From assembly GCF_000703045.1 (NCBI RefSeq), contig NZ_JNLJ01000001.1, forward strand, positions 124,001-188,000: 64,000 nucleotides of DNA. Reading direction: 5' to 3'. How positions within the stretch are numbered: position 1 is the stretch's first letter; each line of letters begins with the position of its first letter. The translations under genes were made by a program, and so were the position numbers. Below, piece after piece: positions 57,349-57,484 of this stretch. The notes under the pieces were generated by a model. That model was not told where the DNA came from. It saw nothing but the letters and a program-made list of their open reading frames with translations, and did not search any database. Source of the stretch: Persephonella sp. IF05-L8 (GTDB taxonomy: Bacteria; Aquificota; Aquificia; Aquificales; Hydrogenothermaceae).

Positions 57349-57363
57349 CTTGACAAATCCCAA

Positions 57364-57477
57364 TCCAGAGAGGTAAGTTAATACTAACTTACAGGCAGAG
57401 CCCATCTGCGTTCCATCTTACCCGGATGGGCTTCTTCCTGCGCAGATTTCTGGAGGGGGATAACTCCTCCCTTTTTG
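57364..57477 (+). ncRNA. candidate structured RNA (three-way junction with pseudoknot and terminator)
   Basis: Pairings seen: closing stem TCCAGA (57364-57369) with TCTGGA (57449-57454); a perfect hairpin GTAAGTTA-ATAC-TAACTTAC (57373-57392); a long arm AGG (57393-57395) with CCT (57437-57439), continuing GAGCCCATC (57398-57406) with GATGGGCTT (57425-57433); and TGCG in its apical loop (57407-57410) complementary to CGCA (57441-57444), a possible pseudoknot. The closing stem shares bases with a following hairpin GGAGG/CCTCC ending in CTTTTT (57452-57475). TTGACA lies at 57350 but without a good -10. It matches no RNA family I know. Confidence 0.55.
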
Positions 57478-57478
57478 G

Positions 57479-57484
57479 TATAAT
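57479..57484 (+). promoter_or_regulatory. -10 box 6 bases before the TPR-SPOR gene
   Basis: TATAAT is separated by exactly 6 bases from the ATG, and no Shine-Dalgarno is present. No clear -35 is seen because the preceding bases form the terminator hairpin. The spacing implies a leaderless mRNA. Confidence 0.45.

Follow-up and report, generated by a model that had tools for sequence, protein, structure and literature searches.

A predicted trans-encoded small RNA complementary to three sites in the cbb3-type oxidase operon of Persephonella sp. IF05-L8

Described regulatory RNAs and the element at 57364–57477

Trans-encoded, Hfq-dependent small RNAs (sRNAs) such as RyhB, Spot 42 and SgrS usually pair imperfectly with their messages and often have many targets. 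The Aquificota are thermophilic, branch deeply and have Hfq, yet to our knowledge no sRNA has been firmly assigned to a target in this phylum, and we found no base-pairing circuit described there. Here we describe an element at positions 57364–57477 of a 64-kilobase (kb) stretch of the Persephonella sp. IF05-L8 genome (the whole stretch is referred to as the window, and the genome, of 1.83 megabases, as G000), which had been taken from its letters alone for a structured RNA with riboswitch-like control of the adjoining TPR-SPOR gene. In our analysis, 57373–57476 very probably represents a trans-encoded sRNA of ~90 nucleotides (nt) repressing cco, the operon of the cbb3 oxidase (a high-affinity oxygen-consuming enzyme), probably assisted by Hfq and itself under the control of a respiratory, perhaps FNR/CRP-like, repressor.

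Like RyhB, Spot 42 and SgrS, this RNA has a promoter (here predicted) and terminator of its own, a seed in a loop, a likely mode of action through start-codon occlusion, and a host with Hfq, but it differs from them in having three sites on one polycistronic messenger RNA (mRNA) which are colinear and mostly 12–17 base pairs (bp) each. Long perfect complementarity to a single target is shared with the cis-encoded antisense RNAs, whereas here the gene lies ~870 kb from cco and the complementarity is divided amongst three separate segments with the intervening sequence left out. The functionally nearest system is FnrS, the FNR-dependent sRNA of enterobacteria, which is likewise a short sRNA in an oxygen/respiration regulon and base-pairs to down-regulate respiratory genes (PMC8139620). 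In contrast to FnrS, which is activated by FNR from an upstream site, the operator of our RNA overlaps the predicted promoter in the position expected for a repressor (overlapping the predicted −10/start in g1 and following the −10 in g3, the two genera of the family in which it was found); furthermore, three long, perfectly matching segments are directed at a single operon, the sequence differs, and there is no Rfam match.

Another non-coding RNA tied to cbb3 oxidase genes is the HRC-8-4 motif of Rhodobacterales, located between ccoNOQP and ccoGHIS in alphaproteobacteria (PMC8632094), although the RNA described here is encoded elsewhere and linked to the oxidase genes by complementarity. Within the same phylum, novel non-coding RNA candidates have been reported from Aquifex aeolicus with Persephonella marina among the compared genomes, and the main text of that paper makes no mention of cbb3 (Lechner et al. 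2014; PMC4227106). As presented in that text these candidates are of A. aeolicus origin, whereas our RNA has no convincing relative outside g1 and g3 (see below). No sRNA of such a kind in Aquificota was found in the literature searched, and the RNA represents a new sRNA family, absent from Rfam and from that literature, with an unusual anatomy of three segments directed at one operon.

Three segments complementary to the cco mRNA

Targets were sought by pattern matching and BLAST. The 14-nt block GTTCCATCTTACCC, which forms the core of what we call segment B and is invariant in all 12 complete sRNAs of our alignment, has one other occurrence in the genome of the window (with no more than one mismatch), and this is the antisense of the ccoO start. 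No other conserved target of segment B was found in this genome or amongst the 41 family genomes searched for GTTCCATCTTACCC-like sites; the extra sites inspected there were coding or unrelated sequence lacking the rest of the sRNA and were rejected. A second block which is nearly invariant across the alignment (CTCTTCCTGCGC, or CTCTTCTTCCGCAG in g3) was used as a query and pointed, in six genomes, to a site ~2 kb upstream of ccoO, within the first cistron of the operon which encodes a diheme cytochrome c.

Segment A (57393–57404, + strand; AGGCAGAGCCCA) is antisense to the ccoO mRNA ~80 nt inside the gene with 12 bp of perfect pairing, segment B (57409–57423, + strand; 15 nt, CGTTCCATCTTACCC) is antisense to the region of the ccoO start codon (sense ATGGGTAAGATGGAACG), and segment C (57430–57445, + strand; GCTTCTTCCTGCGCAG) is antisense to codons ~41–46 of the first cistron with 16 bp of perfect pairing (all values for the genome of the window). 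The order A–B–C in the sRNA is the antiparallel image of the order C'–B'–A' in the mRNA, and all three segments could therefore occupy one transcript; by itself, such an order would arise by chance one time in six. As ccoO is located at C1:1050653–1051381, with the first cistron ~2 kb upstream, the sRNA is encoded well away from its target. The first cistron, ccoN and ccoO belong to the Cytochrome_CBB3, COX1 and FixO families, respectively, and since ccoN and ccoO score well under the NCBIfam equivalog cut-offs, we regard the enzyme as a divergent C-family (heme-copper) oxidase which we name cbb3-type here. The gene order in the cluster is diheme cytochrome c followed by ccoN and ccoO (L006:786–2926 and L003:861–1637).

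When the sRNA was compared with the 3.8-kb cco region of its own genome, the three best complementarities were segments C, B and A (16, 15 and 12 nt), and in each of the 11 genomes having both sRNA and cco sequence, the sum of the three best exact runs (33–44) was above that of all 1000 dinucleotide shuffles. Equal-length slices of the window reached sums of no more than 30, compared to 43 for the sRNA. We note that in four genomes (G025, G021, G029 and G018) another exact run takes third place in the ranking, segment A being there interrupted by G–U pairs or missing. The calculated duplex energies are ~−25 to −31 kcal/mol at 37 °C and −13 to −17 kcal/mol at 70 °C, with growth of the family at ~70 °C.

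The complementarity is also preserved through compensatory change. At segment A in g3, the sRNA sequence GGGAGAGCCC is found with GGGCTCTCCC in ccoO (G008) and GGGAGGGCTC with GGGCCCTCCC (G007), and the g1 sequences at this site are GGGCTCTGCC in ccoO and GGCAGAGCCC in the sRNA (with variants). Segment C co-varies in G021 and g3 (CTGTGCCG with CGGCACAG; GCCTCTTCTTCCGCAGT with ACTGCGGAAGAAGAGGC). The first-cistron sequence at this site is CTGCGCAGGAAGA amongst the closest relatives, CGGCGCAGGAAGA in G017, G024 and G029, CGGCACAGGAAGAG in G021 and ACTGCGGAAGAAGAGGC in g3, the last with a change of Gln to Glu, and the antisense counterparts in the sRNA are TCTTCCTGCGCAG (closest relatives), TCTTCCTGCGCCG (G017 and G024), TTTTCCTGCGCCG (G029), CTCTTCCTGTGCCG (G021) and GCCTCTTCTTCCGCAGT (g3). 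In a cross-genome matrix, segments A and C mostly pair over 10–17 nt within a clade and mostly over 5–9 nt with the other clade. At the level of sequence comparison, the fact that both segments co-vary with their targets from one genus to the other strongly supports selection for pairing between the two RNAs. That the RNA follows its target is the evidence to which we give most weight, and the three-segment anatomy offers a clear example of how a regulatory RNA keeps up with both synonymous and non-synonymous changes in its target.

The segments are arranged as they would be in an antisense copy of cco that had been compressed, yet we consider it extremely unlikely that the element is a functionless inverted cco fragment or that the complementarity arose by chance, as complementarity was renewed after target changes in separate lineages (and the co-variation matrix contradicts such an origin), exceeds all of the shuffles in 11 genomes, and is accompanied by a predicted promoter, an operator and a terminator which have been kept.

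The RNA gene, its fold and its relatives

The predicted sRNA gene is placed at 57386–57476 (+ strand, ~90 nt) by the covariance model, with a 5' end which we infer from the promoter-like sequences described below. The model itself, R1, matches 57374–57476 (C1:181374–181476) with 119.8 bits, and the element is present in one copy in the genome. No open reading frame (ORF) of at least 50 amino acids (aa) covers 57364–57477, and this stretch is non-coding. The + strand folds with −48.6 kcal/mol compared to −30.5 ± 3.3 for 200 dinucleotide shuffles (z −5.56, with none equal), and the − strand folds less well (z −3.5). No family reached its gathering score in a scan against Rfam 15, in which only chance matches were seen at E ≤ 10 (e.g. 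PyrR, at 16 bits versus the 54 needed). A strong intrinsic terminator (57452–57476, + strand; GGAGGGGGATAACTCCTCC at 57452–57470, a C, and T5 at 57472–57476) was found by a terminator scan at the 3' end of the sRNA; it is present in all relatives with a complete sRNA, and pair changes within its stem preserve pairing. These results, together with the conservation amongst relatives, support the part of the sequence-only reading which held the element to be a structured non-coding RNA of a kind not yet described, ending in a terminator of its own.

Minimum free energy folds give a stem-loop at 57393–57440 (+ strand) in which the arms are formed by segments A and C and the apical loop by segment B. 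The A/C stem is retained by most g1 members and is lost in G018, and the centre of the segment B loop (an 8-nt apical loop) is unpaired at both 37 and 70 °C (P ≥ 0.98).

Relatives were identified by a DNA search of 41 family genomes, giving close matches in g1 and weaker ones in g3, and by R1 over 136 Aquificota genomes, giving 13 carriers (10/14 g1 genomes, including one fragment at a contig end, and 3/3 g3 genomes). Outside these two genera the model found no convincing relative in the 136 genomes, the remaining matches being at or near noise; the weak matches inspected were promoter palindromes or unrelated sequence and were not counted as members, and no sRNA was found by R1 in L027 and L028, two named genomes encoding aat. 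It should be noted that some assemblies are incomplete, so that absence from G022, G026 and G027 is weak evidence, and is better supported in G023 (99% complete). Two of these g1 genomes have an altered ccoO start (G022, GGGTAAAATGG; G026, GATGGAGC). Across the alignment, conservation tracks the pairing segments and terminator, and also the palindrome discussed below, but not the stems.

This bears directly on the proposal that the element is a riboswitch or attenuator leader of the TPR-SPOR gene. All of the complementarities on which it was based are present: a closing stem (TCCAGA, 57364–57369, with TCTGGA, 57449–57454), an 8-bp hairpin (GTAAGTTA, 57373–57380, with TAACTTAC, 57385–57392), an arm (GCCCATC, 57400–57406, with GATGGGC, 57425–57431) with its extension (AGG, 57393–57395, with CCT, 57437–57439), a pseudoknot (TCTGCG, 57405–57410, with CGCAGA, 57441–57446) and an alternative pair (GGTAAG, 57372–57377, with CTTACC, 57417–57422). 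However, the closing stem is kept in only ~64–68% of cells with no co-variation beyond that of shuffles, and the pseudoknot is not kept in relatives and has no co-variation at all. The covariance search which had been suggested as a check did find relatives in Aquificota, but provided no compensatory support for either of these. The competition of GGTAAG with CTTACC is best seen as a by-product, as one half belongs to the operator and the other to the segment pairing with the start of ccoO. The site of the 8-bp hairpin is also that of a DNA operator found repeatedly at other promoters. A conserved aptamer with co-varying stems was not seen, as there was no clear co-variation over controls and the stem is lost in G018.

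The location of the terminator directly upstream of the TPR-SPOR gene, a neighbour retained by most g1 members, is what a leader would require. In g3, however, the sRNA lies between a 130-aa ORF on one side and a 101–103-aa YajC-like ORF on the other with no TPR-SPOR gene downstream, and so there is no fixed place upstream of a regulated gene and the sRNA is a free-standing gene. A promoter-like TATAAT is also found at 57479–57484, directly 3' of the terminator, with 6 bases separating it from the ATG of the TPR-SPOR gene. This gene need therefore not be read through the sRNA terminator, and transcription beginning at the normal distance from this box would give an mRNA with almost no leader. 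The complementarity to cco with its compensatory changes means that conservation is accounted for by pairing in trans with an unrelated mRNA, and is not explained by control of the neighbour. With no Rfam match in addition, we regard the leader as very unlikely, and as largely refuted by where the RNA lies in g3 and by its co-variation with the mRNA.

Predicted operator, regulon and proposed mechanism

The predicted sRNA promoter consists of a −35-like TTGACA (57350–57355, + strand) and a −10-like TAAGTT (57374–57379, + strand), placing the RNA start at ~57386. While the terminator was found by scan, the promoter is suggested by conserved spacing, with TTGACA 17–18 nt before TAAGTT in G000, G019, G025, G017, G024, G029 and G018. 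The corresponding pair is TTGAAA-N17-TAGTAT in G021, and TTGATT-N17-TATAAT directly upstream of the palindrome in g3. A stricter promoter scan did not list the TTGACA because the −10 matches at only 3/6 positions.

The palindrome GTAAGTTAATACTAACTTAC (57373–57392) overlaps the predicted −10 and start and is of the class GTTAGT-N4-ACTAAC. With no more than one mismatch, this motif has 18 matches in the genome compared to 3 for a reversed control, and an excess was also seen in four relatives. It occurs at the promoters of cydA/hemN, a DUF2202 gene, a fasciclin gene and a PEGA lipoprotein gene divergent from a NapH/CcoG-like gene, amongst others, and at inspected promoters it is usually just 3' of the −10, the position of a repressor. 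We consider it unlikely that the palindrome acts as an RNA hairpin only, leaving the sRNA constitutive or otherwise controlled: the predicted start in g3 closely precedes the palindrome, which would in that case form part of the transcript, but the palindrome is enriched genome-wide, and the inspected sites are mostly promoters of genes without such an RNA. This alternative concerns control of the sRNA and not its target.

Judged by its members, the GTTAGT-N4-ACTAAC set appears to be a respiratory regulon, one which we did not encounter in the literature consulted. The predicted regulon includes cytochrome bd, hemN, DUF2202, fasciclin, PEGA and PAS proteins. Examples of its operator sites are those at ~1500–1516 in L113 and L263, and cydA carries two sites ~68 bp apart. 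No operator was found upstream of cco in G000, and one with a single mismatch in G031. The 5-N4-5 core geometry fits a site for the CRP/FNR family, for which there are four PF13545 candidates (three above cut-off). One of these family genes, which lacks N-terminal cysteines (L272:1489–2121; C1:923252–923884, minus strand), adjoins a cytochrome c maturation-like gene and has a one-mismatch operator ~95 bp upstream of its start. We offer this gene as a candidate regulator, a lead rather than a result.

Sequence shows that the RNA gene is conserved, that the three complementarities exist and co-vary, that the operator motif is shared with other promoters and that Hfq genes are present; from this the following mechanism can be proposed. 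Transcription of the sRNA is probably repressed by a regulator binding the operator, which is also found at cytochrome bd, hemN and other respiration-related promoters. The sRNA would thus be made and accumulate when the regulator leaves the operator, and the content of the regulon suggests oxygen or respiration as the signal. The apical loop (segment B) would contact the ccoO start codon, and the resulting duplex of 14–17 bp would block initiation. Opening of the stem would free segment A to pair ~60 nt further into ccoO and segment C to pair within the first cistron, probably aided by one of the two Hfq homologues bound to the terminator U tract, adding stability and perhaps leading to mRNA decay. 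The outcome would be silencing of the oxidase operon through blocked translation and probably faster decay. Hfq is found in all 41 family genomes, the U5 tail 3' of the terminator stem is compatible with Hfq binding, and A. aeolicus Hfq binds U-rich and A-rich RNA with nanomolar affinity (PMC5379935). Nearly every family genome has two different Hfq homologues (C1:251285–251473 and C1:310364–310543 in the genome of the window), and in a few the second match carries a stop codon.

We infer repression rather than activation because one segment covers the start codon, and production of the cbb3 oxidase would thus most likely be turned off. The pairing with cco might be real and have another outcome, namely to stabilise or activate part of the operon, to tune the ratio of the first cistron to ccoO, or to let the mRNA act as a sponge which removes the sRNA. 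Two of the three sites lie within coding sequence, and segment C is conserved even where segment A has been lost (G018), but the invariant segment B covers a start codon, the typical site of repression, and no other conserved target was found; we give these outcomes a low probability. Repression of cco by the sRNA has several points to contend with. As segment A has been lost from G018 and is weak in G029, the three sites are not all needed everywhere, and the targets of A and C are inside genes where pairing often barely affects initiation. Four g1 genomes, one of them 99% complete, have no detected sRNA, which would make it dispensable. In addition, the predicted −10 is weak in g1, the operator has a candidate regulator only, and expression of the sRNA is a prediction from sequence.

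A more tentative possibility is that a dedicated multi-site sRNA holds two cistrons of one mRNA simultaneously, with C, B and A pairing colinearly and bridging ~2 kb. Both cytochrome c subunits of the oxidase would in this way be silenced, or kept in balance, jointly. Such an RNA would be intermediate between trans-encoded sRNAs and cis-antisense RNAs, and may have come from an antisense transcript which lost its intervening sequence. If the proposed repression is correct, it would mean that thermophiles control the cbb3 oxidase post-transcriptionally, and would represent RNA–RNA pairing evolved for high temperature in which long perfect segments may replace short seeds. As the target, three contact sites and predicted compensating mutations are given by the sequence, the circuit can be tested directly.

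The same operator is carried by a second candidate sRNA, found at L110:1502–1571 (C5:24547 onwards in the genome of the window) and in L264, L265 and L266. No target was found for it by comparison with cco and by BLAST: cco was rejected because the only long match (GGTTCCAGCAGG) is upstream of the likely cco promoter and shortened in G019, and a BLAST match in a ClC-like channel gene (E 0.69) was taken as chance. This candidate consists of TATAAT, GTTAGTGTTTACTAAC, then GATGCCCTGCTGGAGCCATCCATATTG and a strong terminator, and its body is identical in the four genomes.
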